A DNA stretch of 64,000 nt from Austropuccinia psidii. Taxonomy: Eukaryota; Basidiomycota; Pucciniomycetes; Pucciniales; Sphaerophragmiaceae. Below the pieces are notes generated by a model, which was not told the DNA's origin, searched no databases, and worked only from the letters and a program-made list of their open reading frames with translations. The position numbers and the translations under genes are program-made. Below are positions 5,711 to 27,574 of the stretch, in pieces; position 1 is the first letter of the stretch; the number at the start of each line of letters is the position of its first letter. Location of the stretch: contig JALGQZ010000002.1 in assembly GCA_023105745.1 (NCBI GenBank), positions 41,027,997 through 41,091,996 of the forward strand. The letters are read 5' to 3'.

Positions 5711-5741
5711 AAGGCAGTGACCTCCTGCCTTATCAAAGAGG
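5711..5741 (+). other. Type B mini-pseudoknot 3
   Basis: Stem 1 AAGGCAG (5711-5717) pairs perfectly with CTGCCTT (5725-5731). The loop CCTC (5721-5724) pairs with GAGG (5738-5741). This is the strongest of the three. Confidence 0.65.
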
Positions 5742-5877
5742 AATATCCAGATTCTTAACCCAAAATTATCATTCAAGAAACATTAACTCAACCCTCAAAC
5801 TATTTTTTATAAATAAATTTGATACTATTATCAATTCATCTTACCTTAACATCTCAAAATCCACCAAAATCCTACAA

Positions 5878-6336
5878 ATGGAGTCATGGCCATTACTTGA
5901 AGAAAGTCCCTGGTCAATGGACACAGATATCAGCTGGGTAGAAGAAAAAGCAGTCTGGACCAATTACAATAATTCCCAAGAAGAAAGTGAATATCCTGAA
6001 TGGTTCTTACAAACCAAGCCAGAACCCTGTCCAGATATCTCCACAATAATCCTTCCATATATTGAGTTTGAGGATATCTTTCAAAAAGAAAAACCACCAT
6101 CAGAAATTGTCATTCCTCATCCATGGAAAGAATTGCCTGGATTCAACCTTACAAAATATGAATTCTTGGAATTACTGACATGGGAAGGAATTGATGGGAA
6201 CCTTGGAAACCCATACCGGAATGAAATATTCCACATTAACGAACACTTCAGGAAGTCACTGTTTTGGAGGACCTGGGAAAGCCAAGAATGGTTAAACCTC
6301 CAGGATTTTAAGATTAAAAATAAAAAAATGCCCTGA
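5878..6336 (+). CDS. Unrecognised 152-residue protein C, Family II 5' region
   Basis: An ATG-started frame of 152 codons, much longer than expected by chance in DNA this AT-rich. The protein is acidic and unusually rich in Trp and Pro (MESWPLLEESPWSMD, WKELPGFNL, FWRTWESQEWL) and ends in a lysine-rich tail. It has no signal peptide or membrane segment and no domain I recognise. Position suggests a Gag-like or accessory product of Family II. Its stop codon (TGA, 6334-6336) lies inside the first copy of the type A pseudoknot array, which could couple its termination to the RNA structure (inference). Confidence 0.5.
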   Translation: MESWPLLEESPWSMDTDISWVEEKAVWTNYNNSQEESEYPEWFLQTKPEPCPDISTIILPYIEFEDIFQKEKPPSEIVIPHPWKELPGFNLTKYEFLELLTWEGIDGNLGNPYRNEIFHINEHFRKSLFWRTWESQEWLNLQDFKIKNKKMP

Positions 6337-9300
6337 GCAAGGAATTAAACTGCTCAATTTCATTTATAATTATTAATTATTGAGTTTACTGATATTATTA
6401 TACAGGGCTTCAAATATACAAAACAGTCTATGACTTAAGATTTGGAGAATTGTTTTCAAATAAATACCAAAAGGAGCCCTCATCATGGCTTAAAACTGCT
6501 TAGTTTTATTTTATTATTGAATTCTTGGTTCTTTTTTTTTCAACTCTAACATTATTGTTCTATCTTTGATACAGGTATATTTCAAAAACAAAAGCTATAT
6601 ATATATATATATTTCATGAATTAAGGAGGTTTAAATAAACCAAAAGGAGCCCTAAGCAAGGCTTTAAACTGCTATTTTATATTTTATGCTTTTATGTTGA
6701 ATAATAACCATACTAACACATTTGATTTGGCTTCCACAGGTATTCAACATTAATAGAATATTCCCCTTATTTCATAGGCTTAAATATGCTTTTAATATGA
6801 AGATGAGTCCTCAATAAGACTATAAACTGTTTAAGCTAATTAAAAAATTTGGCTTTGAAGATAAATAACATGCCATGAAACCCCAAAGGCCAAAATCAGG
6901 TGCCTGTACACAAAATATGGTCCTTGGCAAGACCATAAACTGCCCACCATTAGAAATCTCAACAAGGAATCAAGTAATTATCAACAAAACAATAGGTCAA
7001 TGGTCCTTGGAAAGACCATAAACTGTCCCTTCAAGGATCAAGAAATTCCTCAGGATATCATCAAGAATATCAACAAAAAGAAATAACCAATGGTCCTTGG
7101 CAAGACCATAAACTGACCATTAAGAATTGACAAACGGACTGAAAATACATGAAAAAAAAATCAACGATGGTCCTTGGAAAGACCATAAACTGACCACTCA
7201 AACTATCAAAAATAATTAGGAAAAAGTAATCAATGGTCCGTGGCAAGACCATAAACTGCATATTTAAATATTAAAAAAAAATTAACAAGGCTATAAAAAA
7301 GAAGAGTCCTGAACAAGACTTAAAACTGTTTATTTTTCTATATTTTTTTATTATTAAATTTATTTATTTTTTTTCAGTATTTTTGAGATTTGGTGATGAC
7401 ATTTTTTTAAAAAAAAAGAATAAAATAAATAATAAAATAAATAATAAAATAAATAATGAAATAAAATTAATAATAAAATAAATTAAAATCAAAAATAAGT
7501 CCTGAACAAGACTTTAAACTTTTGAATTTTTTTACCTGTTTTGTGTTAATGTTATTTATTACTAATTGTTTCTTATATATATAAAAATGAATGATGACAA
7601 TGATTACAATATATATATATATATATCAGAATGAAAATAAAATCCTTACTTATTTTTAATTTTCTTCAAGATTTTATTATATTTACTGATGTTTTTTTTA
7701 AAAAAATGCCCTGAGCAAAGCTTTAAACTTCTCACTTTTATTTTTTATCATTTATTAGATTTCTTATTTTAACTGACATATTAATTTCTTTACATTTTTT
7801 CATATATGAATCAATATATATATATAACAGAATGGCTTTACAATGAAAATTAACAAATAAGTGCTCAGAAGGACTTAAAACTGCTTATTTCTCTTTTGTT
7901 TCACTTTACAATATAATAACTGATCTTGTTTTATTTCACTATAGTTTCATTGACAACTATTTTCAGCTTTGACTATAGGGGATATAAGCAACAAGGCTAT
8001 AAAGAAAAATAAAAAGCCCTCAGTATGGCTATAAACTGCTGGTTTCTTCTTTATTTTATCTTTTTGACTGTTTAATTAACTAAAAATAATGATTTACCTT
8101 TTACAGGGCTTTAGAAAAATTATTATAAGGAAAAGCCCTCATCAAGGCTTTAAACTGATGATTTTTTCTCAAATTTAACATTATTTTATTTTTTATAACT
8201 AAATTGATTTAAAACCTCTGGTTATTGATTTCTACAGGAAATTCAAAAGGAAAACAATAAGAAAAGGCCTTTGAATTAAAAAATCACATAAAAAAATAGC
8301 CCTCAGTATGGCTATAAACTGCTTATTTTGTTTTATTTTTCATTCTTACTTTATTTTTTGGATATTAAATTAAAACTGATATATTTCATTTTTTGATAGG
8401 TTAAAGGGATATAAACAATAATATCCCTCAGCAAGACATTAAACTTCTGTAATCTTTTCATTTTCCCCTTGATATTACATGAAGCTGACATATTTTATTT
8501 TTATGTGCTACAGGGCTATAAATAATGAAAATGTCCTCAGCAAGACATTGAACTGCTGGACTTTTTGCATTTTCTCCTTAATATCAAATAAAGCTGAACT
8601 ATTTTGGTTTTGATGTGCTACAGGGCTACAAAAAATAGTAATATGCCCTGAGCAAGGCATTAAACTGCTCAATTTCATTTATAATTGTTAATTATTGAGC
8701 TTACTGCTATTATTATATAGGGCTTCAAATATACAAAACAGACTATAACCTAAGATTTGGAGAAGTGTTTTCAAATAAATACCAAAAGGAGCCCTCAGAA
8801 TGGCTTAAAACTGCTTGGTTTTATTTATTATTTAATTCTTGGTTCTTTTTTTCCTACTCTAACATTATTTTTCTATTTTCGATACAGGGATATTTCAAAA
8901 CAAAACAAAAATAGTATATATTTATATATATTTATATTTAGTGACTTAAGAAGGTCAAAATACAACAAAAAAAGAGCCCTCAGTATGGCTATAAGCTGCT
9001 TATTTTATTTTTTATGATTCAATTAGTTGACTAACCATGTTTTTTATTATAGAATGAGGGCCCAAAATCAAAGAGCCCTCAGCATTGCTCTAAACTGCTG
9101 GGTTTTCTTACTTTAATTAAATTAATTTTATGAATTTTTTTAGGCTAAAGGGCCATAAATAACAAGAAAATGCCCTCAGCATGGCTTAAAACTGCTTAGT
9201 TCTTTTATGAATTATAATTCTGCTTTTTGCATTTGCTAATTGATTCTTTATTTTGAAATTCTACAGGGCTATAAATAACAAAAGGAGCCCTAAGCAAGGC

Positions 9301-9750
9301 TTTAAACTTCTGTTTCTATTTTTATGCTTGTCTCTTGTGTTTTATAATATATCATACTGACATATTTGATTTGACTTCTACAGGTATTCAAAATTGAAAA
9401 AGAAAACACTTTCATGATTTTATAAGCTTAAGAAGATACTTTTAAGATGAAGAGGAGTCCCAAATAAGACTATAAGCTTTTTGATTCAATTTGCAACTTG
9501 GCTTTGAAGATAAATAAAAACCAAAAGTATCAACAAGGAATCAAGTAATTATCAACAAAACAATAAGTCAATGGTCCTTGGCAGGACCATAAACTGCCCA
9601 CCATTAGAATTATCAACAAGGACTCAAAGCTAAAACACAATCAACAAATGGTCCTTGGAAAGACCATAAACTCCTTATTTAAAGTATTCAAAAAGATTAG
9701 ACAAGGACTACAAAAGCAGGATAAGTCCTAGGCAAGACTATAAACTACCT
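6328..9750 (+). repeat. Array of 28 type A mini-pseudoknot motifs
   Basis: Copies start near 6328, 6473, 6645, 6803, 6917, 7000, 7090, 7167, 7233, 7301, 7496, 7706, 7859, 8013, 8134, 8297, 8421, 8531, 8643, 8788, 8973, 9072, 9169, 9284, 9451, 9571, 9647 and 9721. The consensus reads GYC-CT-NRGCA-A-GRC, a linker of 5-7 nt (usually ending TAAAC), then TGCTN. Stem 1 is 3-5 bp (AGCC/GGCT, AGTC/GACT, TGGTC/GACCA, ATGTC/GACAT, ATGCC/GGCAT) and the loop NRGCA pairs with the 3' TGCTN. Between copies lie 50-120 nt of T-rich DNA that often end in a CTGAY-like box and a pyrimidine tract with CAG. No coding region of note is seen in this stretch. Microsatellites occur at about 6595-6615, 7422-7492 and 7608-7627. 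Confidence 0.75.
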
Positions 9751-11114
9751 AAGGTTTCATTTCTTATTTTTTTTAATTTCCAATTTTATGTCATTATAAA
9801 CAAGAATTAGGGAGATTTACTGACTTGAATGTTCTGAACATGTTTTTTATTTTATATTTTATTTTATTTTATTTTTTATTTCAAACTAATTTATTTATTT
9901 TGACTAAGGATTAGGGTCATATCCCATTAATGAGCTCAAGAATATTCTATTATACTTTTCCTACTATTACAGCAAGAGCCATTAAGTTGGCTTGATTTTT
10001 CAACTCAATAATAACAATAATCAAAAAAAACTCTACATCAAGTATTATTGTTTTTAAAATGATCAATTTATTTGAAATATTTCTTCAATTACAAGAGAGT
10101 GATTGGAACTTGTTTGAAAAGAAGAAGTATTTGTGCCATGAAGGAATTAATTGAAATCTGAAGGAGTTATTTATATTAAAAACTCATAAATTGATGACAT
10201 AATTTGGGGAATTTACATATTAATAACACCTCAATGTGCTATTTATTTCAAATGGAATTTAAAAAGCCCCCCAAAATCAAGCAAGAGTTTTTTTAAAAAC
10301 CTTCAAAAATTCTTATTTTTCACTGTTTATATTTTTTCAACAACTCAAATGCATTTATGGGTAACAGAAAATCTGAACCATAAAGGGGATGGACTTCAAA
10401 TAAAATTCCGAGTCACAATGATGATTCCAAAAGGAAGAGTTGTGGCATCATAAGGGTCATTTTATGACTAAAGAATTCAAATTATGATCATTCAACTACG
10501 AAATATTAATCATAAATACTCTCAAGAGCACCAATTTTTACCTATTGGCACAAATTACCACCTTCAACCAAACAGTTTCATGATCTTACTTGTGATTCAG
10601 GTTTATTTCCTTTTGAAGTGTGATCTTTCCTCAGTTATATCAATTTTTAGGCTATTTCATACTTAAAATCAAACAAAAAAAGACTATTCAGTCCAATTTA
10701 AAAAAAGAAACTATGTTTATTTATTGTATTATTATTTATTCTCATCAAAATCACCATAAAAAATAAGGGGTGAGAAAAACTTATTTCTTACATTATCCCT
10801 TATAGTGGAAGTTTTGGGGGAATGAGAACATATCCTCTTCAAAATTCAAAAACCAACTCAAGATTTTTGAATGGAGAGGGGGGCCCTTATCCAAAACAAA
10901 TATTATTAAAAAAATATCAATAAATTAATATCAAAATCAATTTTAAAACACCTTATTATTACAATACTTTATTTTTCATTTCTTTATAACAGGTAAAATC
11001 AGGAATACAAAAGAACAAAAGGAAATTAATTATTTTGAAGAAATAGCAAGAGAATTGGGAAACAACTTATCATAGGAAAATTATTCAGAATACTGAAAAT
11101 GAAGAAGATTATTT
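9751..11114. other. Family II internal region without a supported gene
   Basis: AT-rich sequence conserved in copy b (25410-26740), so it belongs to the element. It includes the pair GTTTGAAAAGAAGAAG/ATTTGTGCCATGAAGG shared by both copies, the central polypurine tract, and no open frame conserved between copies. The 60-residue frame at 10484-10666 is not kept in copy b. Confidence 0.5.
10870..10883 (+). other. Candidate central polypurine tract, Family II copy a
   Basis: AATGGAGAGGGGG here is an exact 13-base copy of the 3' polypurine tract at 15141-15153, in the middle of the element. The equivalent place in copy b (26509-26522) keeps AATGGAGAAGGGGG. A second plus-strand priming site is known in lentiviruses and in Ty1; its use here is inferred. 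Confidence 0.5.
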
Positions 11115-11303
11115 ATGAAGAAAAGCAGGAGTTCCTTATGGATTGACCTTTGGACAACACAAGACCTTGGACACTTCTTTGATTCTGGAGTGAAACTCAT
11201 TTGCATTTCAAGAATAAGTGGTCAGGATTTATGGAATGAAGGATTACTCACTGGATTAACTATGAACTCAGGACTCACTCAACATGATGGCCCAACAAGA
11301 TGA
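11115..11303 (+). CDS. Conserved short open frame upstream of Family II pol
   Basis: A 62-codon frame (KKSRSSLWIDLWTTQDLGHF). The homologous frame in copy b (about 26745-26940) keeps most residues, although that copy is badly decayed, so this is ancestral coding sequence rather than chance. A DSG triplet (FFDSG) recalls the retropepsin D-S/T-G motif, but copy b has DPG and the context is not typical, so a protease call is only a possibility. It sits between the pseudoknot clusters and pol, where a protease or the end of Gag would be expected. Confidence 0.35.
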   Translation: MKKSRSSLWIDLWTTQDLGHFFDSGVKLICISRISGQDLWNEGLLTGLTMNSGLTQHDGPTR

Positions 11304-11358
11304 TTTAAACATGCAACTCAAATTGCCCTTGGGATTTTAAAGAAGCTTGAAGACTCAG

Positions 11359-11850
11359 GAGGTCCTCAGCATGACACTAAACTGCTTCCCCTGTAGACTT
11401 GGGCAGGGAAACTTATAAAAAACAACAGCCAAGAAGCTGAAGGGGATTGTCCTAGTCAGGAGAAGTGCTGAAGGACCATCTTTGTCCTTAGCATGAATAT
11501 AAACTTCTCCCTTTGTGTAACAGGAACAAGGGGCTTCAAAGGTGTTTATCATTATCAAATTGGCCAAAATGAACAAAGTGAAGTCTCAAGCCATCAATTA
11601 AGACAAGAAAATTCCTTATCAAGAAATAAAACAACAAGAATAATCTTGCATCAATTGGAAATCATGAATATTGAACAATAAAACAAGAGTCAAGTGGAAT
11701 CCAAACTCAAGCCCAAAGGAGCTCAAGAATCAAGATAAGCCCTTGGATTAGGCCAGGAAGTCCTTGCATGACTTAAACTGCAGGACTTGTATACCTGGTA
11801 TACAGGGGTTACACACCTAGTTGTAGGTCCTGTATGATCTTAAACTACAT
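11359..11850 (+). repeat. Second cluster of type A pseudoknot motifs (4 copies)
   Basis: Copies at about 11359, 11483, 11756 and 11824. The one at 11756 pairs AAGTC/GACTT and TGCA/TGCA. The one at 11824 pairs GGTC/GATC and TGTA/TACA, a full change of the stem-2 sequence that keeps pairing. The copy at 11483 has a weak stem 1. Relics of all four are found in copy b at about 26985, 27113, 27388 and 27447. The last ends about 110 nt before the pol frame. Confidence 0.65.
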
Positions 11851-11959
11851 TTTTTATGGAAGAAAGAAGAAAGAATAATTGTGAAGACCTCAAGATTTCA
11901 GGACACTAGCAAATTCTTAGAAATCATTAAAAGAAAGAAAGAAAGAAAAAAATAACTAA

Positions 11960-12721
11960 TTGAAGATGGATCACCAAATTTTAGCAGCCAAATGTAAATC
12001 AGTCCTGAAGAAGGTGAGACCAGTCAATGAGCCAATGCCTCAAGACCTTAACCCACCTTTGGAAAGACCACCTTTGTCAAGAGTTCCTTATGAAACACCG
12101 TTATCACTCAATCCACCTATATTTCAAGAAACCTTCAAAGTCACCCATGAAAGACTGCAAGCAGTTAATTTTGGCCAACCAGGATTGTTATCAAATGAAG
12201 AAATCGATTTACTCAAAAATGTTATTACCTTAAGGGAAAAAGCAATAGCTTTCTGTGAAGAAGAAAGAGGATTACTCAAACACTCATATGGAAAACATTA
12301 CAAAATACCAGTAATATCTCATGAACCTTGGCAGAAGAAACCAATTCCCATTCCCAAATCAATTTTACCTCAGTTTACTGAATTAATCAGAGAAAGAATC
12401 AGGCCTGGAATCTATGAGCAATCCACTTCAAGCTACACAAGCCCAATATTTTGAGTGGCCATATCCAATGGGAAACTCAGAATTGTCCATGACCTCCAAG
12501 AACTCAGCAAAGTCACCATCAAGGATGCTGGCTTACCACCTCACATTGAAGAATTTGTAGATGCATTTTCAGGAAGAGCATGTTATGGACTAGGAGACAT
12601 CATGAGAGGATATGATGAAAGAGAATTAAATGTCACTAAAAGACCCCTCACTAATTTTGAAACACCCCTTGGAAGGATGCAACTCACAAGTCTACCCCAA
12701 GGAGCCACCAAGCCCAAATGA
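11960..12721 (+). pseudogene. Family II Pol, N-terminal part and start of RT (nonsense mutation)
   Basis: The start at 11960 is the first long stretch of the pol frame; no protease precedes it in frame. It begins with a basic and Pro-rich leader (KSVLKKVRPVNEPMP), then the approach to RT (SYTSPIF, KLRIVHDLQEL, YGLGDIMRGYDEREL, LPQGATK), corresponding to RT motifs 1-4 of Ty3/Gypsy elements. A TGA at 12452-12454 interrupts the frame; copy b has TGT (Cys) there. The frame then ends at 12721 because a 19-bp segment present in copy b is deleted between two ACCAAG repeats at about 12709. Copy a therefore cannot make a working RT. Confidence 0.85.
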
Positions 12722-13716
12722 CCTGGATACTTCAAGAAGAAATACCAGAAAGTGTAGGAATTTTTATTGATGATGGAGGAATAAAAGGACCAAGATCACT
12801 TTACAACCAAGAAACACTACCAGAAAATCCCTCAATCAGAAGATTTATATGGGAATATGCAATAACCTTAGAAAGAGTTTTATTCAGGATTGAAGAAGAA
12901 GGACTTACTATCTCAGGATCCAAGTTTGCATGCTGTGTTCCAGCTTTGGACATAGTAGGGCATGTTGTATCATTCAAAGGAAGAACAATCTTAAAACAAA
13001 AGATCAACAAGATTCAAAATTTGTCAACACCTCTCAACAAAAAGGAAATAAGAGGATTTCTTGGTCTTTGTGCCTATGCAAGAATGTTTATTGAAAACTT
13101 TTCACAAGTTGCATCACCACTCAGAAGGCTCACCAGAGAAGATGTCGACTGGGACCGGGATCAAGAATGTGAAGAAGCTTTCCATAAGCTCAGAAGAATA
13201 GTTGGAGAAGAATTAACTCTCAAGAAATTGGATTATGACAAAAGATCAGGAAAGATTAAGCTAGCAGTAGATTCAAGCTACATTGCTGCTGCAGCAGTAC
13301 TCACTCAAGAAGATAAAGAAGGAAAAGACAGACCAGTATTATATGAATCAATAACTGTTTCAAAATTAGAATCAAAATACTCACAACCTAAATTGGAGCT
13401 CTGTGGAGTTGCAAGAATTCTCAAGAAGCTTCAGAAAATACTTTGGGGACAACATTTTGAATTACAAGCTGATGCCAAGGCCTTAATTGGAATGATCAAT
13501 ACCCCTTGCTTACCCAATGCCCCCATGAAAAGATGGGTGGCTTTCATTCAACTATTTTCCTTTGATTTGGTACACAAACCAGGGAAGAATTTCACTATGC
13601 CAGATGGGCTATCCAGAAGACCAAAAACTCAGAAGAAGAAGATGAAGATGCAACAGAGTTTGATGAAGAAGAAGATTGGATCAAGCCACACCCTGGATTT
13701 GGGGCTAAGAATGTAA
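12718..13716 (+). pseudogene. Family II Pol: RT catalytic part and RNase H
   Basis: It carries the RT active site as FIDD (residues 16-19 from 12718) instead of the usual YIDD, followed by the thumb and connection region (RGFLGLCAYARMFIENFSQV), then an RNase H-like domain (LAVDSSYIAAAAVL, KLELCGVARIL, LQADAKAL). It should copy element RNA into DNA and degrade the RNA in the hybrid. It ends in a DGLSRRPK motif, after which a single-base deletion (about 13632) shifts out of the acidic linker that continues in another frame (EEEDEDATEFDEEEDW). The ATG at 12718 is incidental: the frame is continuous with the upstream pol once the 19-bp deletion is taken into account. Confidence 0.85.
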
Positions 13717-13775
13717 ATTCACTCCATTTTTCAGGAATACAAGTACCAACCAAACAAGAAGGATTTTGGAAGAGA

Positions 13776-14366
13776 ATGCAAGAATACTTAAGTACAATGA
13801 AAAAACCACAATCAAGTAAAGATGAAGAACTTAGAAGGATAAAAAGAAGGTCATCCAGCTTTTTCTTGGAAGATGGCCAACTCAAAAGAAGAAATAATCC
13901 AAACCCTCAATTGGTGATATCAAGTCAAGAAGCTCAAAGCTACATTTTAAAGTCACTTCATGAAGACATTGGTCACAGAGGGGAAAATGAAACTTACAGA
14001 AGAATTAAAGCAAGATTTTGGTGGGAAGGAATGAAGAAATCAGTCAAGAAATGGGTTCAATCCTGCCTGGCCTGCCAAAAGAGAAGTCAAAACTTACAAA
14101 GGGAACAAGGAGAATCTACAGCAACATCAACAATCTTTGAAAGGGTCAGTATGGATGCAGTCCATATCAAATCTGGAAGATGGAAGTATATGGTTGTGGC
14201 CAGGCATGATTTTTCAGGATGGCCAGAAACAGTTGGACTAGTCAAATTAACAGCAAAAGCAGTTGCAGAATGGTTCACCTCAGAATGGATACGCAGGTAT
14301 GGCTCACCAAAAGACGTAACTGTTGATGGGGGCCATAGTTTGGAAAAGAATTGCAAGATGCAGTGA
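13776..14366 (+). pseudogene. Family II Pol: integrase N-terminal and core
   Basis: The HHCC zinc-binding domain is seen as His62, His67, Cys97 and Cys100 (numbering from 13776). The catalytic core begins with Asp127 in SMDAVH, and the second Asp is residue 184 in VDGG. The frame is lost just after this point through a single-base deletion near 14330, as comparison with copy b and the next frame shows. The coding sequence really extends upstream of the ATG, since the linker from 13634 is in the same frame. Role: nuclear insertion of element DNA. Confidence 0.85.
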
Positions 14367-15106
14367 AGAAAGCAGGATCAAGGATCAGAGTCACCACACC
14401 TTATTACCCAGAGTCTCAAGGAATTGTTGAAAGGGGTCATATAAAACTCAAAGATGCACTAGTCAAGATGTGTGGAGAAAATGGAGGGAAATGGAAAAAA
14501 TATTTACCACTAATTACATTGGCTGACAGAATTTCCACTAAAAGAACAACTGGTTTCTCACCATTTGAACTCCAATTTGGAAACATACCAGTATTACCAA
14601 TTGACATTGAAAAAAAAACATTTTTAGCAGTAGAATGGCACAAAATATCCACAACTGAGGAATTACTGGAATCCAGAGCTAAACAATTAGAAGGGAAAGA
14701 AGAAATGAGAAGGAAGGCAGCAGAAAAACTCAAAAAATCAAGGGAGGACTCAATGAAATATTGGGATAGAAGAATGGCACACCAACTAAGATCACCACTC
14801 AATCCAGGAGATTTGGTCCTGGTTTACAACAAAGCAATAGAAACTAATTGGGGACTAATTTTCAAAAACAAATGGAATGGACCCTACAGAGTAATCAGAC
14901 AAATAAACAATGGACCATATGAACTTGAGGAGCTGGATGGAACAGAATTAGCAAGAAGATTTGCAGCCTCTAAAGTCAAAAGGTTTTACCCAAGAGGAAC
15001 GTTGATGGACACAAAAGAAGAAACAGAAGAAGAACAAAGTGAAGAAGATGAATCAATAAATGAGGAAGAGGTAGTTGAGGTGACCACAGAATCAGATGAA
15101 GAATAG
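14351..15106 (+). pseudogene. Family II Pol: integrase C-terminal part
   Basis: It continues the integrase core with the catalytic Glu27 in VERGH (PESQGIVERGH), then the GPY/F-like module (GDLVLVYNKA, FKNKWNGPYRVI, DGTELARRFAASKVKRFY) typical of Ty3/Gypsy integrases. The C-terminus is very acidic (EETEEEQSEEDESINEEE) and no chromodomain is seen, unlike Family I. The stop at 15104-15106 is followed by 34 nt, then the polypurine tract and LTR. Confidence 0.87.
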
Positions 15107-15140
15107 GCAGCTCTCACCTGGAATGCTGGGGGAAGCATTA

Positions 15141-15154
15141 AATGGAGAGGGGGA
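15141..15154 (+). other. 3' polypurine tract, Family II copy a
   Basis: AATGGAGAGGGGGA directly abuts the TG of the LTR, the standard position for the plus-strand primer. Confidence 0.8.
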
Positions 15155-15528
15155 TGTGGTATGCCATACCATTTTTTTTCACCAGGCTCAAGCTCATAGT
15201 ACCCCATAAGAGCAGTAAATCCAGCCTACAGGCAGACTTACACTAAAGTTCTACACCAAAAGGTCAATTTTACAGCAAGAAGCTGGATTTAACTCATAAA
15301 ACCATGGCACAGGCACCAAAGGGAAGTGTATGTGTTTAAAAAAATTATTCAATTTCATTATGCATATGTAAAAAATCAGGTTACATATAATAAACTAGTT
15401 ACAACCAATAAGGTACCACCCTTTAAATTACACACTCCACCCAGATTTACACCACCCTTACAGCCACAGTACTGATGCAGCAAGAAAATGACACATGCAT
15501 TAGTTATACAGCCAACTTGCATTCAAAG

Positions 15529-16181
15529 TCACATGATGCAAAGCCCAGCCCCATGGAATTCCTGCAGCTCATTTACAACACAGCCACAGGAGTACCTTAT
15601 CTTATATCCACAGTAACCCCACTTTAAACCTTCAAACAGAATCAGATTTATTCACACCACTCATCACCTCATGCAAACCAAAGCTAGTTACAACAGGCTG
15701 CATGCAGTACACAATTTTAATTAAATCTCAACCACATGACTATGCACAGCATGTGTCAAACTCAAAAATCACATCATCTCATACATAAAAGTAAATTCAC
15801 CAGTGCAAGAAATTATCACCTGACTTCATTTTAAAGTTCAAAAAGAAGAAAAACAACCATTACACCTACATAAATTACACAGCCACTTCTACTAATCCTA
15901 AAATAGGACATATGCAAAGGAATTGCAAGGTCATCATGTGATACTGCATCCACCAACAGAATATCATGTGACAGGAAAGAGGCTGTGCACAACAAAAATC
16001 CCCAGCCAAAATTGAATCACCTCATGTATGAAAGGAAAATTCAGGAATATCACATCATAATTAGTTCACCAAAAGACAATCATGTGATAAATGGAGGCTG
16101 TGCAGAGAAAACAATTATCACCAAACCTTAAATCACTTGACCCATGCAAGAAAGGGCCTCACCAAAAATGGAGTCACATGA
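15529..16181. promoter_or_regulatory. U3 cluster of TCATGTGA / TCACATGA motifs
   Basis: Sites at 15529-15536, 15732-15739 (CCACATGA), 15934-15941, 15964-15971, 16080-16087 and 16174-16181, all upstream of the TATA box at 16248. Two of them are followed by GGCTGTGCA. The core CACATG fits the E-box form CANNTG, so a bHLH-type factor is one possibility. Which factor binds is unknown. Confidence 0.4.
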
Positions 16182-16393: not shown

Positions 16394-16502
16394 ATTACCC
16401 AGTAGCTAAGCTCAGTGGAAGTATAGTGTTGAAGATTACCCAGTAGCTAAGCTCAGTGGAAGTATAGTGTTGAAGATTACCCAGTAGCTAAGCTCAGTGG
16501 AA
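16394..16502 (+). repeat. 41-bp minisatellite in Family II LTR
   Basis: About 2.7 units starting at 16394, 16435 and 16476, each with CAGTAGCTAAGCTCAGTGG. The LTRs at 30662 and 34064 have only about 1.7 units of a 38-bp version (31898-31959 and 34945-35008). It lies downstream of the TATA box, so it should be in the transcribed leader. Confidence 0.85.
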
Positions 16503-17221
16503 TCTTATTATTATTAAAAAAAGACAATAAAAATTATCCATTACCCAAGATTAGGGTTACTACTCTATTAAAATATTTTAACTAGTAAAATTAACTTCAT
16601 TTAACAAGATTTAAAAATAACTTACCCCTTTCAAAAATCCAATATCAAACAATCTTACCTCTTAAATTTAACAAATACTATTTCATCTAATTATTAACAC
16701 TTTTAAAAAAAATAACAAACCTTTAAAAAATTATTTTCCTCTATTATAATTTTACCTTAACAAAATTACCTTTATCAACACTCATCCAGCTTTCCAGACC
16801 ACCTTAAAAAAACCCATATTACCAAAACTATATCACCAGGAAGAAACCACTCACCTCAATTTCACTCAAAAATAAAAATCAAAATTATACAGACAAGTAT
16901 TTCATTAAAACATCAAATTTAACCAGAATTACTGACAGTATTTTTAATATTATTTATTGAATAGGTCTGATCTGAGACTGCTGAATATTGTCTTCTGCAG
17001 TTTTAAAGCCACTTACTAATTTTATTTTGGTTTGTGAGCTCCAAGGAAGATTTTGTTCAGTATTTTAGGAGGGGCAGGCAATACACCCTTGCCACCCTTG
17101 GTTACAGGAGTTATTAGCAATTCAAAACTAGTTACCTGTGATTTCCCCCTCCAGGTACTGCCTCATTTTAATCCCACACAAGAGGAATTCCCACAATACT
17201 TATACTTATTTGTCTTTTCAG

Positions 17222-20001
17222 TGCTTGCAGAAAACCCAGAAGAGGATAATCAAGCCACTGTTGAGAGATTGGTGGAAGAAACTTTCCCAAGTTCTGCAAC
17301 ACCTACTGTCAATGAGAAAAAGAAAGCTAAGGAATCAGTCTTTCCAGGACCCACTATTCAGGACTCTGAAGGTGAGTAACTCCTTTTTAAGTGCCATGAA
17401 AGATTATTTTGTGTTCTGAAGTCCTTTGTTTCCTTAAATTTTCACTATGACTACTAGAAGAGGATCCCAATACTCCATCCAATCAGATGGAAGTGGACTC
17501 AGAAGTAGAATTCATCCCTCAAAAGGGAAAAGAAAGAGAAGAATCCCCAGTGTAACAGAATCCATACAAGGAAGTGCCATATCAAAAGACAAGTCCCATA
17601 ATGCCCATGATTTCTGAACCAGAATTGAAACTAAGTATGAGTAATTCCAACAGAGACAAATCAAATTCAGCGGGCTCAAATAGACATTTATATGAGCCAG
17701 TAGAAGAAGTATTACACAGTGTACAAGGACAAATATTGGGAAATGTTGCCACAAATCCACCAAGGAGTGATGAGCTCCTGGCATATCCTGAAAAAATTCC
17801 TCAAAGAGGAGGAAATAGTGAGAGACTCCAATGGATGGAATCCACTATCATCCAAACCCCAAATCAAGAAGATAAAGGAATACCATGCCAAAAAGAAAGA
17901 GGAAAGCAAGGAAGAAGCCCCAGTAGCTTCTACCAACAAGCCTCAAGCCAACCAACTTCCGCAAAAAGGGAAGAAGAACAATAAAAAGAATTGGAGGAAA
18001 TCATATTCCCCAAGTTACAAGATCCCAAGAATCCAAAAAGCTGCCATGGACAATGTCTTTAAAATGGTAAGAACCTTGATGGAATTCAAGGACAAAGGGG
18101 AACAAAGAATGAGACTCATTTCCCAAAGAAACAGCTTTGTCTCCTGATGTTGTGAATACTTTAACTGAAATTAAAAATAGTATCTTACCTCTTAAAGACA
18201 TTAAAAATAGTCTATTATCCTCACAAGAAATAAATAACAGCTTATCATCTTTAACAAAAAATCGTTGTACAAAACCAAAAAAAAATCAATAAAATTAAAT
18301 TTATGGTTGAAAATAACAAACCAAAAATTCTAATTGACAATACTCAAAATTTGATACAAGGACAACAAGAATTTTATAAATACATAAAAGATATTAAAGA
18401 AAAAACTTCAACAATCAATTACAATGTGAGCATTGGGAATTTAACAGAAAAATCAAACAAATTAAGTATTTCTGTTGAAACTTGTGAAGAAAAAACTTCA
18501 ATAAATCAAAAATTACCTTTAGACCATGTAAAAAACAGTGATTAAGCAAGAATGAATCTTAAGGACGACATTCAAAGTTAAATAAGACTTATTACTGAAA
18601 ATGGATGAAATAAATGATGGTGGCTTAAATATGCCAAAGTTATCAACCCCACTTTCTCGCATAAGAAGTCCTGTTAAGCCAAAAAAGAAAATAACAAACC
18701 CATTCATGACAGACTTGAGTCATCAAGACAATAAACAAACCTTAATGAAAAAAGAACCTCAATGTAAAGAATGGCCAATATTCACAGGTCAAGGTGAATA
18801 TGACCATATGTCAATAATTAAAACAAGTGATATGTTACAAGAAGATTATGTCATACCAGATGAATTAATCACTGCAAGACTAAATTCATTATTTGACAAA
18901 TCTGCAAAAAGATGGTATTATGGTATAAGAAAAACTAATGGTAAAAATACCAGGTCTTGGTGGAAAAATGAAATAATTACCCAATGCGAAAATGATGCCT
19001 GGAGGTACAAAATAGAAAATGCATTTAAAAATCCCTTCTTTGATCCAGATAAGGATAAACCTTTGACTTGGTTCTTAAAACAAGTTGAAAGGCTGAATTC
19101 ACTGTACCCATAAAAGTCACAAAAGATGGTGCACATGAAGATACTTGAGAAATTTGGAGGGGAATTAGAATATGCCCTGAGAATCAGGTTCATAGAACCA
19201 TGCTCCACAGAGGAGTATATCAATACAATGGAAGATATAGTTACAAGAACTAAAATTTGTAGAATTTGGAAAAAAGTGGACATCAAAAGTCCAAATAAAC
19301 CATTTATCAAGAAAGATAAATCAAGAGAGCCTTTCAACTCCAATACACCTAACAGTAATGAGCAAAGAAAATGCCATAAATTGGGAGGTATTGGACACTT
19401 AGGCAATAATTGCCTCAAAAAAGCAAAAATAAATGAAATTGTGGAAACAGATGACCACAATGACAAAGAAGAAGAATCATATTCTGAAAAAGACACTGAG
19501 GAGTCAGAAACTTCTGAAAGTGATGCAATCAATATAATTAATGCAAAAACTAATAATATTGGTTTAATATATGAAGTGTTAGATGTTACCTCAAACTTAC
19601 CACAAGTTGGAACATCTGATACAAGCCTGACAAACATACAAGATGCCAAACTATATAGAGCCAAACCAGAAAAAGGAATGGGATATACAGATGGAAAGTC
19701 AAGTATAAGCATTGTAATGGCTGAAAACCAAGAGGCAAAAGTTAACTTGGATATAGGCACATACTGTACATGTGTTGGTAAAAATTATTTGAAATCAATT
19801 GTACCATATTGGGAAGAAAAAATTATACCAATACAAGGAGTCAAATTTAGTGGTGCCAATGAAAGCATGAAGCCCCTTGGAATAATTAACATAACACCAA
19901 CTTTTCCTCACCCTTCACAATGTATAAGAGTGAAAGTAAAGTTTTTAGTAATGGAAAACTGTACCAGTAACCACTTTATACTTGGAAATGATTACTTGTG
20001 A
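17222..20001 (+). pseudogene. Family I Gag and protease relic (copy 2)
   Basis: It starts with a 150-nt leader exon (17222-17371: EDNQATVERLVEET, KKAKESVFPGPTIQDSE), a probable 86-bp intron (17372-17457, GTGAGT...CTAG) and then gag. The capsid-like part is open at 18601-19113 and 19126-20001. The zinc knuckle has lost its second cysteine (CHKLGGIGHLGNNC), and the protease active site reads DIG (19750-19758) where copy 3 has DTG. Stops occur at several places, including one where copy 3 reads Leu-Tyr-Pro-Glu (about 19111). It is not functional but is useful for working out the ancestral frames. Confidence 0.85.
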
Positions 20002-23000
20002 ATTTATGGAATAGATATATCAAATAAAAAAGACAGATATTTTACCATAGGAGACAATAAGAGGCAAAAATATGGGTTCTGAAATAACACAAAAACAAAT
20101 TACAGTCATAAAAAAGAAGAGAAAAACCCAGAAAAAGACTTTTTCATAAGGGACCAACTTGAAGAGGCATAATTCAATCAATAATTAACAGAAAAATTGA
20201 AAGAAAAATGGATTGACCTCTTATTCAAATATAAAGATTCCTTTGCAACTGACAAAGAGCCACTAGGTGCAATTACTGGACATGAAGTAGACATTATACT
20301 CAATGTAGAAAGGCCTTATCCACCTCTGTTAAGGAGACCAGCTTACCCAGCTAGCCCAAGAGCTAGAGAAGCCTTAGAGGTACACATTGAAGAATTAATG
20401 GACCCTGCGGTATTAAGGAAAGTAGGAACTAATGAACAGTTAAAGATCACTACACCTGTCATTATTACTTGAAATAATGTAAAATAAAGTATGGTAGGGG
20501 ACTTTAAAGCTTCAAATACCTACACTATCCATGACAGATATGCAACACCCAGAATCCATGAGAATTTAACATAATTTTAACAGTCTAAGCTCATTACAGC
20601 CATGGATGCTCTGAAAGGATTTCATCAAAATGGCTTGAAAGACAATACTACGAAACTACTGAGGATAATAGTCCACTTTGGGATATATGAATATCTAAGG
20701 ATGCCATTTGGTATAAAAAATGCACCTTCCCATTATCAAAGGATGATGAACACCATATTTCCTGAAGAATTATCAGAAGGATGATTAATCATCTATATTT
20801 ATGATATCATAATTTGCTCAGAAACTTGGGAAAGTTAATTAACAAGACCAGAAGGAGTACTAAAAAGACAGTCTAAGTGAATATGAAAATTTCCCTCAAA
20901 ATGTGTCATTTTTCATATAGTGAGCTTAAAGAACTAGGACATGTTTTATCTGGACTAAGCTTGGGCATAGATAAAAACAAAGTATCAGCTGTACTACTGA
21001 AACCAATTCCCCAAACCAAAAAGAAAAGAAATCACTTCTAGTATTTACTGTTTACTACAGACAGCATATAAAGGACTTTGCAAGAATTGCCAAATCCTTG
21101 TATAAACTCTGTTACCAACAGACAGCTTATGAAATGACTGAAGAAAGAGTCGAAGCATATGAGGAATTGAAAAATGCCCTCACAAATGCCCTATTTCTCC
21201 TAATTCCGGATTGGAAACTACCTTACAAACTATAAATTGATGCTTGTGGAGAAGGATTAGGTGCTACACTACACCAGACACAGATAATCAATGATAAACC
21301 TGTTGAAGGACAAATTTGCTTCATTTAAAGATAAATTAAATCAACAGAAGCAAGGTATGGAGAAAGAAAAATGGAATGTCTCTGCTTAGTGTTGGCTTAA
21401 AAGAAACTACATTATTATTTGGATGGTACAGTGTTTGATTTAAATACAGATTTTAATGCTGTAAAATCTTTTTTAAACATGAATACACCAAATAGACATA
21501 TGCTAAGATGGCAAATTGCTATCCAAGAATATAGAGGAAATATGACTATAGCTCATAAATCGGGAAAAATTCATAAAAATGCAGATGGTCTTAGTAGATG
21601 GGCTTTAGCAAATACACCTGAAAACCCAGCATGGGTACCACAGGAAGAGCACCATATAGAAGCCATATGTGTCACAGACATTGGCACAGAATTCTTCAAA
21701 AAAGTCAAAGAAAGCTATAAGATGGATAAGAGCTGTCATATCCCATGGCAACTTCTGATGAAAGAATGCAAAGACTCATCACACTCATCCAAACTAGATG
21801 AAATATGGAAAAAAGTGTATGATGAATGAAGATTCCATCTTGTTGATGGAATACTGTATCATAGGACCAAACACACATTTGTTATTTCCTTAACAGGTAG
21901 AGCCTTGATAAGTACTATATTGCATGAATGTCATGGCAGTGTTGCATCTGGACATCTCTCAGAAGATAGGACACTGGAAAGGGTTAAAACCTGATCTTGG
22001 TGGCCAAAGTGGAGAAAGGACTTTGCAGAATACTGCCAAACCTGTGACAGATGTCAAAAAGCAAACAGAGCCACAGGAATGAAATTTTGAATCATGATCC
22101 AAATCCAAGAATCAAAATCCCCATGGGAAATAGTTAATATGGATTTGGTGATAGCTTTACCCCCAGGAGGAGACAGGATTTATAATGAATGCCTAGTACT
22201 GGTTGACAGATACACCAAAACTCCATTGTTCTTATCATGTCATAATGATGACACAGATATGGACACAGCCATAATGATATGGAATAAAGTTATTAGCCAC
22301 ACAGGCTTATCCAAAATATCATAAGTCACAGAGACCCAAAATTAACTTCAGCATTATGGACAAACCTCCATAACTTGTTTGGAACAAAGCTATAGTTCTC
22401 AACAGCTTACCACCCTAAAACTGATGGTCTAGCAGAAAGAATGATACAGACCTTAGAAGATATGATCAGAAGATTCTGTGCCTATGGACTAGAGTTCAAA
22501 GACTCTGATAGCTTTACCCATGATTTGTGTACCCTAATACTAGCTCTTGAACTGGAATATAAAACATCAATCAATTCTTCAACTGGCAAAACACCAGAAG
22601 AGATGTTACAGAAAGGTTGGAATCCAATACTTCCTTATGATAACCTCTAAAAGGACTTAGTGGATTTACATCCAACAGCAAGCAGTTTCAAAATAATTCT
22701 TGACAAAGAAAGACATCATGCAAACAGATGTATGCAAGACTATTTTAAATATGCAAAAGAGAGATGGGATGAAAGTCATAAACCACCTGACTATAAAGTA
22801 GGAGAATTGGTCTTGGTATCTACTCTGAATTTCAATAATAGTAAAGGTCCAAATAAATTGAAAGATGCCTTTGAAGGACCATTTATGATCAAAGCACTAC
22901 ATTGGCCTAATTCTGCACAATTAAGACTAACCAGTGAGCTTATGAACAAACACCCAACTTTCCTTAAATGTCTGATAAAACCTTACAGCTTAAGTGACAA

Positions 23001-23236
23001 AGATTTATTTCCACTAAGAAATAAACCCCCACTTGAAATCTCCTCCTAGAAGAAGGAGAAGAAAAGAAAATTGTAACAGTCCTTAAATAAAGAAGGACAA
23101 GAGACAAAAAAGAAAGGGAATACCTTGTAAGGTATAGAAACCCAGCTCAAGAGGATGAATGGCTACTTGAGAAAAATATAAATAATGCTTATAAGATACT
23201 AAGAATTTTCAGACATGAAAGAAGACCTAAAGAATA
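20002..23236 (+). pseudogene. Family I Pol relic: RT, RNase H, integrase, chromodomain (copy 2)
   Basis: Open remnants at 20197-20472, 20602-20784, 21419-21829, 22094-22324, 22441-22650 and 22660-23049 align in order with the copy 3 Pol. The RT catalytic motif has become YIYD (about 20797-20808) in place of YIDD, removing one metal-binding aspartate. The integrase region holds a stop in place of the Cys-Ser-Trp-Trp segment and a deletion near 22310. Inactive. Confidence 0.87.
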
Positions 23237-23355
23237 AAAGAGTTAAGCATTATTCAGCTTCAAGACTAAGAAAGTCTAATGAAGAGGTGGGACAGTGGAT
23301 GATACCCTAATTAACTATATCAGACTGTAGTACAATACTTATTTGTGGGAGGGAA

Positions 23356-25282
23356 TGTGATCCTTTGAGATATGACCACATATCCAAAAAGGTCACAAGA
23401 AAGACTTTAAAAAAATTATCTTAAAATAAGTAAAAATACCATAAAAAAGCATAACTGCTTAATTAACTTAGAATATGATGAATAGAAATTTGAAATATAT
23501 TACACTATTAGATTCCCCATGGTGAAACACACATATATCATTTTTATGGAATATCTGTAAAGTCAACACCTAATAAGGTATAAGCTGAAAATGCCATAGA
23601 AAAACATAAATTCTATTTATCTCAGAAGCCAATGGAACAAAATGTAAAATATATTGCACCATTGGATTCCCCATGAGAAACTACACATAAAACAATTTTT
23701 TTTCATTTGTCTAAAGTTAATACTTAAGGAATTAAGCTGAATATATGCACTTTTTTGGTCAGTGCATACATTCATGGTTTTTAGCTCATATCTCCTTAAA
23801 TATACATGGTAGAGAGCTAAGACAAAAATAAAGTTAACACATAATGACTTTAAAAACACAGATATCAACTTTATTTGACAGTTTGTAAACATGGTTATAA
23901 CTTTTAAGGGTTTCTTGAACAAAATTGCTAGAGCTGTTGACCACTTTATTGTGAAAGTGGTCCAAACCTGCAATGAAGTGAATATTCAGGTTCTCATCTT
24001 TCATACGTAAATAATTATGTATTTTTTATCATAATATTCAAGGTAAAACCCCCTGAAATCAAGGCTTGAAGTGTAAAATAGTGAATTTCAACAGAAAAGA
24101 TGATATACAAGAAAAATCATCAAAAATAGATTTTTGATGATGTAATGAAATTCTCTTGAAATTTTTAACAAGCTATCAGAATTCACTCTCTGAATGGCTG
24201 TAGCATGTATAACCTAAATGTTATTAATGATCAAAGCTTAAGCTTAAAATTGATCATTTATGATCACTCACTGTAATCTTATTTTAAGCTTAACAGTTAT
24301 ATAAGTGATAAAGCTGATGAATACTATTATATTATGATTAATAGTAATAAAGACACAAAGGATTGGCTTCTTTCAAGCCTATGATGTTATTAGACTTAGG
24401 GTTATAGTGATAACTCTAAATAATGGTGTAATAATTAGATAAGAGGGTATGATAATGATTTAATCATCTTTAAACGTTCAAATGATGATCATTTCCAGTG
24501 AATACCACCAGTAAACGTCTACTAGAGGGCTTCTGGACTCTAGAAGGGAGGAATTTACTATAAATAGAGCCCCTTTTACTCTATTTTGCCCTGAGATGCA
24601 TCAAAAACAATAAAACATTAAATAAAAATGTAAAATCTTTATTCTTTATATATAGATCATTTATATCATCAAAGACCAAAGTTAATATTTATTATAATCA
24701 TCAATATTGACTTTATTACTCCATTTGTTTAATTCTTTTTTTATATTTCTCTATAAATCTCCTTTTCAAGGTAAAATTAAAAATATTTGTAATTTCTCTT
24801 ATTTTATTTTGTAAATAAAATTTAAATAAGTTTTATTTACATTTTTTGATGTAAAATCTTTCAAAATCATGATTTTAGGTGTTAAAAGTAGGTTACTTTC
24901 TCTTTTTTAATAATTTCTCTCTATTGTTACTCTTAATAATTCTTTTATTAATATAACTGGTATTTATATTAATATATAACATTAATATTGGTAATATTAT
25001 TGCTATTAATTACTTTTTATTATTGAAAACAATTTTTTATGCCTTCTTGTTTGTTGGTAACAATAATAAAGAGATTTAGATATATTAATTATTATACATT
25101 AATATATTTATTTTTATTATATTATTATATTTATTTAATAATATAATAATTTTAGGCAATAATTGGAATAATTATTTCTCATTATAATTATTATTTATTT
25201 TATTCATTTAATAAGGACATTCATAGTAAAATAAGTAAAATATTTGTAATACTTACTTATTGTTTCAAAGTCAAACCTTACA
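23356..25282 (+). repeat. Family I 3' LTR (copy 2)
   Basis: About 1927 bp, TGTGATCC to CTTACA, aligning along its length with the other Family I LTRs but clearly diverged. Preceded by the purine-rich TGTGGGAGGGAA. Many CpG positions of the young LTRs are TpG or CpA here. Confidence 0.9.
24559..24566 (+). promoter_or_regulatory. TATA box of Family I LTR (copy 2)
   Basis: TATAAATA preserved in the aligned position of the old LTR. Confidence 0.5.
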
Positions 25283-27574
25283 AACAAGGACTGTAAAGAA
25301 AGTAAACAAAGGTTCCTTGGCAAGACCATGAACTGCTTATATAAAGTATTCAAAAAGATTGAACAAGTACTACCAAAACAGGATAAGTTGTAGGCAAGAT
25401 TAGAAACTACCTAAGTTTTCTTTCATTTTATTTTTGATTTTATAGTTTTATTTCATTATAACAAAAGATTTGAAAGAACTACTGCCCTACACTGTTTTAA
25501 GAATTTTCTATTTTTTATTTTTTTATTATATTTCAAATGCATTTATTTCTTTAAATGAAAAATTAGGGGCATATCCCATTCAAGGCTTCAAGAATATTCC
25601 TTTTTATCTAAATTATATTTTTTCTGCTACTATTACACAAAGAGCCATTAGATTGGCTTAAATTTTCAACTCAAAAAAAATTAAAAAAATTCTACATCAA
25701 GTAATTTGTTGAAATAATCAATTTAATCATAATACCTCTTGAATTACAAGTAAGTGATTGGAGCTTGTTTGAAAAGAAGAAGAATTTGTGCCATGAAGGC
25801 ATTAATTGAACTCTGAAAGAGTTATTCATATTACAACCTCATAAATTGATGACATAATTTGGGGAATTTACATATCAATAACACCTCAATGTGTTTTTTA
25901 ATCCAAATGTAATTCAAAAGGCCCCCCAATAATAAAACAAGAGTTTTTTAACTGTAAATTTTCCAGTTTCACTGTTTATAATTTTTTAACAAGTCAGATG
26001 AATTTATGGGTAACAGAAAGTCTGAACCATAAAGGGATAGACTTGAAACAAAATCTCAGTCATAATGATTATTCCAAAAGGAAGTTTTTTCACATCATAA
26101 GGGTCATTATATGAATAAAGGACTCAAATTATTATCATTGAGTTATGTTATGATACCTACAAATATTCCCAAAACCTCCAATTTTCACTCATTGGAACAA
26201 ATTACCACCTTTAACCAAACAGCTCCATGATCTTGAATGTGAGCAGGATTATTTCTTTTAAAGTGTGATTTTTACTCAGATATATCAATTTTTAGGTTAT
26301 TTTATACTTAGAATCAAACAAAAAACTATTCAGTCCAACTTAGAAGATAAATTTTGGTACTTTAACATATTCTTATTTATTCCTATCAAAATCACTATAA
26401 AAAATAAGGGGTGGTTAAACTTATTTTTCACACTATCCCATAAAGTGGAAGTTTGAGGGAATGAGGGTATATCCTTTTCAAGCTTTGGAAACCAGCTCAA
26501 TATTTTTAAATGGAGAAGGGGGCCCTCATCCAAAGGAATATTATTAAAAAAACATTCAATCAAGATTAGAATAAACCTTAAATGATCTTACTATCATTAT
26601 TTATCATTTATCATTTATCATTCAATTTTTATAACAGGGATATCCCAGGAATACAGAAAAGCAAAGCACATAAGTTATATTGAAGAAATAGAAAGGGAAT
26701 TTGGAAACAAATTATTCAGAATACTGAAAAGAGGAAGATTATTCATGAAGAAAAGCAGGAGCTCCTTATGGATTGACCTTTGGACAACACAAGACCTTGG
26801 CCATTTCTTTGATCCTGGATTGAAAATCATTTGCACTTCAAGAATCACTGGTCAATATTTTTGGACTGAAGGATGACTCACTGGATCAATTATGGACTCA
26901 GGACTCACTCAATGTGTTGGGCCAACAAGATTATGTAAGACAATCAACTGAAATTGCCCTTGGAATTTTAAGGAAGCTTTAAGACTCAAGAGTTTCTCAG
27001 AATGACACTAAACTGCTTACCCTGTAGACTTGGGCAGGGAAACTTATAGAAAATAACAGCCAAGAAGCTTGAGGGGATTGTCCTAGTCAGGAGAAGTGCT
27101 GAAGGACCATTTTTTTCCTTAGCATGAAAACAAACTTCTCCCTTTGTGTAACAGGAACAATGGGTTTCAAAGGTGTTTATCATTATCAAATTGGCCACAA
27201 TGAAAAAATTAAGTTCCAAGCCAGCAATTAAAACAAGGAAATTCCTCATCAAGAAATAAAACAACCAGAAGAATCTTGCATCAAATTAGAATCATGAAGA
27301 TTGAAGAATAAAACAATAGTCAAGTGGAATCCAAAATTAATCCCAAAGGAGTTCCAGAATCAAGATAATCTCTTGGATTAGACCAGGAAGTCCTTTCATG
27401 ACCTAAACTGAAGGACTCTTATACCAAATATACAGGGGTTACACACCTAGTTGTAGGTGCTGTATGCCCTTAAACCACATTTTTTAGGGAAGACAAAAGA
27501 AAGAAGAATGGTGAAGAACTCAATACTTTAAGACACTAGAAAATTCTTGAAAAGTCTTGAAAATCACTAATTGA

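Follow-up and report, generated by a model that had tools for sequence, protein, structure and literature searches.

Small pseudoknots are mostly known singly, in RNA viruses and riboswitches, and tandem pseudoknots are already known in other RNAs. The upstream pseudoknot domain of tobamoviruses and the leader knots of picornaviruses consist of small H-type knots placed in tandem in non-coding viral RNA, a handful in each case, and the ToxI-type RNAs of type III toxin–antitoxin systems are tandem repeats of a pseudoknot of 30-odd nucleotides (nt). The −1 frameshift pseudoknots of luteoviruses and poleroviruses combine a 2-nt first loop, a 1-nt junction, an A-rich linker and short stems. ToxI is paired with an RNA-cutting toxin (PMC5086642); the STAXI motif (RF01728) of Enterobacteriales is a simple pseudoknot with UUCG loops, repeated two to three times, for which the function is given as unknown and either RNA or single-stranded DNA as possible (PMC2864571); and the exonuclease-resistant RNAs (xrRNAs) of flaviviruses, which occur in tandem copies, form a mechanical block to Xrn1, RNase J1 and Dxo1 (PMC5760640). 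Here we describe an array of about 30 H-type pseudoknots of 27 nt inside Family II, a Ty3-like long-terminal-repeat (LTR) retrotransposon of the rust fungus Austropuccinia psidii. All positions refer to the window, the 64,000-nt stretch that was analyzed (assembly GCA_023105745.1, contig JALGQZ010000002.1, 41,027,997 to 41,091,996, forward strand), unless another locus is named.

The copies occupy 6329–9750 and 11361–11850 of the + strand. Read directly from 5' to 3', each unit consists of the 5' arm of stem 1, the bases CT, a 5-nt 5' arm of stem 2 whose last base is A, a single A or T, the 3' arm of stem 1, a linker of the form NNTAAAC and the 3' arm of stem 2, which mostly begins with TG. 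Stem 1 has 4–6 base pairs (bp), loop 1 is CU, stem 2 has 4–5 bp, the junction is 1 nt, and the A-rich linker ends in AAAC. A sequence-only reading of this DNA had proposed the same order of stems, loop and linker, which direct reading from 6329 to 11850 bears out, as it does the short first loop (a 2-nt pyrimidine loop) and the A-rich second linker. The exchanges in stem 2 that it had listed at 8531, 9072, 6328, 8643, 8134, 6917, 9571, 7301, 6803 and 11824 are likewise in the sequence.

An anchor pattern made of the fixed loop bases and the innermost stem-2 pair has 29 matches on the + strand of 6300–11900 and none on the − strand. Three of these (8468, 8577 and 11615) are not pseudoknot-like, stem 1 of a fourth (11487) is poor, and further units lie outside the anchor near 7232, 7861, 9453, 9571, 11756 and 11824; the total by eye is about 30–33, close to the 32 or so counted before, with 29 matches and a few units that the anchor misses. 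Many units are imperfect. A strict rule, requiring all four inner stem-1 pairs and all four core stem-2 pairs, is passed by only ten of them (C of the CT loop at 6652, 6810, 6923, 7309, 8019, 8138, 8302, 8536, 8648 and 9577), and has no match on the − strand of the array, in the remaining window or in 200 dinucleotide shuffles. The array and its units are as follows, each unit located by the anchor unless another route is named.

6329–9750, + strand: main array of about 28 units, spaced roughly 65–210 nt apart (direct reading, anchor and covariation)
6329–6355, + strand: unit; one mismatch in stem 1, stem 2 GAGCA/TGCTC
6475–6501, + strand: unit; weak stem 2
6648–6674, + strand: unit; passes the strict rule
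6806–6832, + strand: unit; passes the strict rule, AGTC/GACT with AATA/TGTT
6919–6945, + strand: unit; passes the strict rule, 6-bp stem 1 ATGGTC/GACCAT
7002–7028, + strand: unit
7092–7118, + strand: unit
7169–7195, + strand: unit; weak stem 2
7235–7261, + strand: unit found by eye; loop CG, not CT
7305–7331, + strand: unit; passes the strict rule
7498–7524, + strand: unit
7707–7733, + strand: unit; stems 1 and 2 imperfect
8015–8041, + strand: unit; passes the strict rule
8134–8160, + strand: unit; passes the strict rule, stem 2 CATCA/TGATG
8298–8324, + strand: unit; passes the strict rule, 6-bp stem 1
8423–8449, + strand: unit; stem 1 decayed
8532–8558, + strand: unit; passes the strict rule, stems of 6 bp and 5 bp
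8644–8670, + strand: unit; passes the strict rule
8790–8816, + strand: unit
8975–9001, + strand: unit
9074–9100, + strand: unit
9171–9197, + strand: unit
9286–9312, + strand: unit
9573–9599, + strand: unit found by the strict rule
9650–9676, + strand: unit
9724–9750, + strand: unit
11361–11387, + strand: downstream unit, nearer pol
11483–11509, + strand: downstream unit; stem 1 poor
11756–11850, + strand: two more downstream units found by eye, AAGTC/GACTT with TGCA/TGCA, and TGTA/TACA

The RNA structure of the array, on the sense strand, is under selection, as its covariation demonstrates. Across the 29 anchor rows, 77.4% of cells are paired compared with 67.1% after shuffling, and the covariation score is 0.380 compared with 0.208, a value reached in none of 500 shuffles; displacing the 3' partners by 1–3 columns lowers pairing from 77% to 28–41%. 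Two other measures do not exceed the shuffles in these rows (double-change pairs, 8 versus 7.3; further pair types, 20 versus 19.4). In this older copy the core pairs are formed in 195/232 cells of all 29 rows, or in 184/208 once three rows judged by eye to be non-knots (8460, 8569 and 11607) are omitted. Stronger pairing is found in 31 rows from three young-looking copies, taken from 4-kb pieces chosen by LTR pairs, which hold 11 (L051), 18 (L052) and 2 (L054) aligned units: core stem 1 is paired in 123/124 cells and core stem 2 in 120/124 (243/248 in total), figures that are raised by the omission by eye of four non-knot-like rows (L051:2507, L051:2535, L054:3903 and L054:623) from the 35 anchor matches. 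Five of the eight core pairs occur there in more than one standard form, and the covariation score (0.448 versus 0.236) is again matched by 0/500 shuffles; double-change pairs and the pair-type count again do not rise above shuffles.

Because related copies can inflate covariation scores, we also used a tree-aware test, in which branches with a change in both columns were counted on a tree of 330 distinct loop-anchored matches. The three column pairs with the greatest excess are one pair of stem 1 (−2,9) and two of stem 2 (3,21 and 4,20), each with 6 co-substitution branches where about 0.9–1.3 are expected (p ≤ 0.002). Genome-wide, the loose core pattern GYCCTNNNNAWGRCNNTAAACTG has 11,551 exact matches in the 1.015-Gb assembly (5,887 + 5,664), and its reversed control has none. 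Pair −2/9, which the pattern leaves free, is C-G in 3,408 matches, T-G in 85, C-A in 71 and, by subtraction, T-A in 7,987, whereas independence of the column frequencies would give about 2,430 C-A; many matches are inherited copies, so these are not independent events. The array RNA has two crossing stems with compensatory change in both, a defining property of an H-type pseudoknot, and we hold the pseudoknot part of our explanation with very high confidence. The argument for selection on RNA structure made in the sequence-only reading is upheld by covariation in both stems, by the tree-aware test and by the −2/9 counts, and the complementarity that it relied on is more frequent than in shuffled rows.

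The rust array has 20–30 knots where the tobamovirus and picornavirus domains, whose tandem layout it resembles, have a handful. It shares tandem repetition of short pseudoknots with ToxI, and repetition of a simple pseudoknot with STAXI, from which its loops and its host separate it. The luteovirus and polerovirus geometry recurs here with a longer stem 2, in repeated form, with no coding frame in the unit tested and with no enrichment of slippery heptamers. The likeness to flavivirus and plant-virus xrRNAs lies in a compact RNA fold that, with no cofactor, would stop 5'-to-3' decay; known xrRNAs are characterized by a ring-like fold around the 5' end, and the present unit, with only putative resistance, is a 27-nt two-stem knot in arrays of tens. 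Rfam, searched with E values up to 10, gave five weak matches in the array region, far below gathering thresholds and some overlapping units, and nothing for one phage knot; at gathering thresholds only transfer RNAs (tRNAs) were found at other loci, and RF01728 was not among the matches of these scans. This miss is not absolute, because Rfam models ignore pseudoknots. We recognized no published description of the motif in the literature searched, coverage of which excludes most subscription papers and all of bioRxiv. The module shared with phages, described below, stands a fair chance of being a new class of RNA.

Three features of the element itself frame the array.

5713–6336, + strand: open reading frame (ORF) upstream of the array, with homologues in other copies (ORF and codon-position rates)
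11960–15106, + strand: broken pol with RNase H and integrase zinc-binding domains and a weak integrase core (Pfam)
15157–15557, + strand: start of the 3' LTR, used as query piece, directly after a purine tract (LTR search)

The upstream ORF changes least at second codon positions (0.16, 0.08 and 0.20 for the three positions) and has no Pfam family above cut-off. One repeat unit, aligned over 21 rows, lacks the codon-position pattern of coding, and the array sits between this gag-position ORF and pol, in apparently non-coding AT-rich RNA. The purine tract and LTR start lie at about 15140–15160. Of 2,662 candidates for the LTR query, 40 places were scored; they include seven same-strand pairs separated by 17.4–19.0 kb and three separated by 22–29 kb, the two members of a pair scoring the same or almost the same, and the loci so paired are presumed to be young copies. 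RNase H precedes integrase in the window copy, the reverse transcriptase domain is matched by Pfam only in copy b (27943–28434), and same-strand LTR pairs are present in other copies, as expected of a Ty3-like element; the earlier placement of the array in an LTR retrotransposon therefore stands. Ten older loci, found by array similarity, carry 11–24 anchor matches each in sense orientation, with variable unit number and order; self-comparison inside the fetched pieces yielded no convincing LTR pair for these ten. In several of them anchor matches lie, judged by position, at about the distance corresponding to unit 11361–11387.

Other observations concern the same element. At several loci (L053:2238-3089 for one) a second, diverged copy of the domain of the upstream ORF lies farther upstream. 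Copy b has decayed units at 25316, 26996 and 27118, roughly matching places. Between LTR matches 18 kb apart, L051:873-1542 holds fragments of a dihydroorotase gene that seem to include introns, a possible host-gene capture. The LTR region of the window has an exact 41-bp tandem repeat in 2.7 copies (16394–16502), the homology of several copies stops near 17195–17206, and Family II seems to be interrupted by another element family at 17195–25284.

The motif extends beyond Family II. Among the first 100 listed matches of the loose core pattern is a second kind of array, GTCCTWGATAWGACCTTAAACTG. At locus L304 (G000:C1:13837400-13839000) there are eight anchor matches, seven of them spaced 76–84 nt apart and six passing the strict rule. 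This array starts some 200 nt past a purine tract resembling the one before the Family II LTR and on that ground probably lies inside the LTR of another family; L304 would then represent a second LTR family that carries knots in an array. Going beyond the sequence-only reading, the array is restricted neither to this element nor to eukaryotes, given the probable second family, the phages described below and the 11,551 genome matches. Array-bearing copies were also noted within about 60–115 kb of contig starts (G000:C10:112557-113810 and C11:58122-60165), and one of them has a near-tandem repeat roughly 275 nt long.

In the viral database IMG/VR the loose core pattern occurs in at least 120 contigs, and 135 phage sites were read. 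At bases that the pattern leaves free, three stem-2 pairs form in 85%, 96% and 97% of these sites and the fourth stem-1 pair in 85%; the two outer stem-1 pairs form in only 35% and 53%, so phage stem 1 has about 4 bp. Pair −2/9 at 131 distinct sites is T-A in 118, C-G in 12, T-G in 1 and C-A in none. In a reverse test, with one pair of stems fixed and all loops free, the first loop reads CT at 86 of 103 distinct phage sites and CC at 8, and the linker is TTAAAC in 54/103; six of the sites lacking TTAAAC have an unrelated linker. In 2.09 Mb of phage loci 293 knots pass the strict rule, against none in dinucleotide shuffles, which is the only comparison that carries weight here because a pattern search had selected the loci. 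BLAST with a rust knot as query matched no phage at E 1, and the link between rust and phage therefore rests on the structural pattern.

Phage knots are mostly intergenic. With ORFs called mechanically around 265 distinct phage knots, only 12 knots lie inside an ORF, 148 begin no more than 20 nt past a stop codon, and in 80 the next ORF starts 20–29 nt downstream. The fraction of the 265 with a stop triplet ending precisely 5 nt upstream of stem 1 is 0.38, compared with 0.03–0.14 at other offsets, and the stretch downstream of the knots is G-poor (14% G). BLAST with one phage knot matched phages of Lactobacillus, Moorella, Mycobacterium, Arthrobacter, Nostoc, Synechococcus and Paracoccus (E 6e-5 to 0.4) and, weakly, Staphylococcus phages (E 1). 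In eight named-phage regions that were read, stem 1 starts 5, 6, 6, 6, 10, 17, 24 and 48 nt past the annotated upstream gene, and six knots pass a rule requiring at least three core stem-2 pairs; the Arthrobacter phage knot has a longer linker and the Paracoccus phage knot a 3-bp stem 1. The knot is followed by an annotated scaffold gene in two regions, by a tRNA gene in two and, in one, by a hypothetical gene immediately preceding the major head gene. Ten downstream proteins, chosen by eye out of 89 and not a random sample, were compared with PHROGs, giving scaffold (4), major head (1), SSB (1), endolysin (1), a function-unknown family (1) and no match (2).

On bacterial contigs (nine of ten, L296 being omitted) the knot begins 4–9 nt past an ORF in 8/9. 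Three loci (L294, L299 and L303, the last two titled Candidatus Saccharibacteria) share one conserved knot, which lies 7 nt past the stop of a small ORF and precedes the inverted repeat CATGCTG/CAGCATG. The knot of transfer-messenger RNA (tmRNA) was considered and rejected, tmRNA being absent at the bacterial loci according to ARAGORN (13 loci) and Rfam (9 loci). One phage knot had no match, at blastn sensitivity, in 5,426 genomes of E. coli, a species not known to have RNase J.

The explanation that we rate best overall, at somewhat under an even chance, is a pseudoknot array that serves as a roadblock to RNA decay. As in other compact knots, the CU loop would pack into the groove of stem 2 and the AAAC linker into that of stem 1, giving a small rigid fold that could halt processive RNA-degrading enzymes, that is, Xrn1-like 5'-to-3' exonucleases in the fungus and RNase J in bacteria, so that RNA downstream of the knot would be protected or delimited. 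An array would then act as many barriers in series, in which gain or loss of units is tolerated. In phages, the mostly single module, lying past a stop codon and ahead of the following start, partly upstream of genes for abundant proteins, could act in the same way. Flaviviral xrRNA is the precedent for one fold that stops Xrn1, RNase J1 and Dxo1 (PMC5760640). We favor this reading because the presumably stiff fold lies between cistrons, partly before abundant-protein genes, and serially in the retrotransposon RNA; a role specifically against processive decay, protecting or delimiting RNA, is put forward only tentatively.

Several results weigh against this proposal. The 5-nt spacing from the stop codon in phages fits an effect on translation equally well, the rust array is internal to the element rather than at its end, and intron-end-like sequence follows 43% of 172 units. 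Among the six co-substitution branches of (−2,9), (3,21) and (4,20), only 4, 1 and 3, respectively, change one standard pair into another, and the other eight column pairs are singly non-significant in the tree-aware test. Plasmids gave 15 weak matches to one phage knot (E 0.9–3, Acinetobacter and Klebsiella among them), and 27 Vibrio phage records match weakly (E 0.4) within a gene annotated as hypothetical. Finally, the loops shared by rust and phage may have arisen by convergence towards one stable fold that is put to different uses.

A close rival, because the 5-nt distance fits a ribosome effect, is that the knots act on translation. A phage ribosome with the stop codon in its A site would meet the knot, which would govern whether it terminates, reinitiates or gains access to the next start, and in the retrotransposon knots would let or stop ribosomes crossing to pol; we consider this joint proposal rather unlikely. 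Five nucleotides is close to the spacing at which stimulators of frameshifting or readthrough contact the ribosome. The 5-nt spike comprises 64 of the 145 phage knots with an ORF end within 20 nt, the placement of the next start fits as well, and in rust units the stop-triplet frequency is also highest at offset 5 (0.16 of 226, others 0.01–0.14), in copies that are not independent. By contrast, a conserved readthrough extension is not seen, the median extension being 18 codons, with zero in 15/145, though more than 280 in 9/145, and the second array, at L304, lies within an apparent LTR. Slippery heptamers 4–10 nt upstream stand at background, in 29/226 rust units (0.13, control 0.12) and in 4/265 at phage loci (0.02, control 0.02), which speaks against the recoding or frameshift role suggested in the sequence-only reading.

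It is unlikely, in our judgment, that the knots nucleate a cooperative RNA-binding protein, Gag or nucleocapsid for packaging in the retrotransposon and an SSB-like protein in phages, with the A-rich linkers as the spreading zone. The operator of T4 gene 32 is a precedent for such a zone, and the bead-on-string layout with A-rich linkers, the G-poor stretch after phage knots and the presence of knots in all three LTR-chosen young copies (though the L054 piece has only two good ones) agree with it; the ten older loci, chosen by array similarity, are uninformative on retention. Yet the motif occurs in phages of unrelated hosts, beside different genes, which makes one shared protein partner implausible, and a probable second family carries the array with different flanks. 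Packaging and decoy binding, which had also been suggested, are possible.

Regulation of splicing, in which each knot would mask the weak donor of a small intron with a branch-site-like CTRAY and a YAG downstream, is improbable. CTRAY-like sequence and YAG|G follow within 92 nt of the 43% of 172 rust knots mentioned above (window 6380–9400 and L031–L050), whereas shuffles give 7.5% and the reverse strand 4.7%, and GC or GT stands at the donor place in 47/66 units so followed and in 7/7 in L051 and L052. However, GC or GT is as frequent without such a 3' end (56/84); TC, GA, AC, AT or AA occupies the donor place in 47/150 units, several with compensated stem 2; the L304 array lacks such 3' ends by eye; the one 'exon' examined is non-coding; and phages lack spliceosomes. 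As a separate candidate, spliceosomal donors inside the knot were rejected, since they are not conserved. That there is no RNA function, only a duplicated repeat or a peptide constraint (a frame reading roughly S/G/C-P-x-x-G/D-x-K-L-L), is barely credible: units are duplicated and turned over between copies, that frame is often open through the motif and two covariation measures stay within shuffles, but covariation includes −2/9, one partner of which would fall at a synonymous third position of a codon, co-substitution persists in the tree-aware test, C-A falls far below expectation genome-wide, young copies have stops in that frame (AGT CCT CAA TAA) and phage knots are mostly intergenic.

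More broadly, a single uncatalogued 27-nt pseudoknot module with fixed CU and AAAC loops might be used by mobile genomes across domains of life, a proposal we make with some reserve. Phages would use it to set apart and protect the messages of abundant proteins, and arrays of tens, in at least two LTR families of one fungus, would have seeded more than 10,000 copies. An array of about 30 units in a cellular retrotransposon, together with thousands of copies genome-wide, constitutes a natural mutational library for pseudoknot folding, and the preferred placement between stop and start in phages of several hosts makes function testable in simple bacterial or yeast reporters. If the decay roadblock is real, exonuclease-resistant RNA would extend to phages and transposons.

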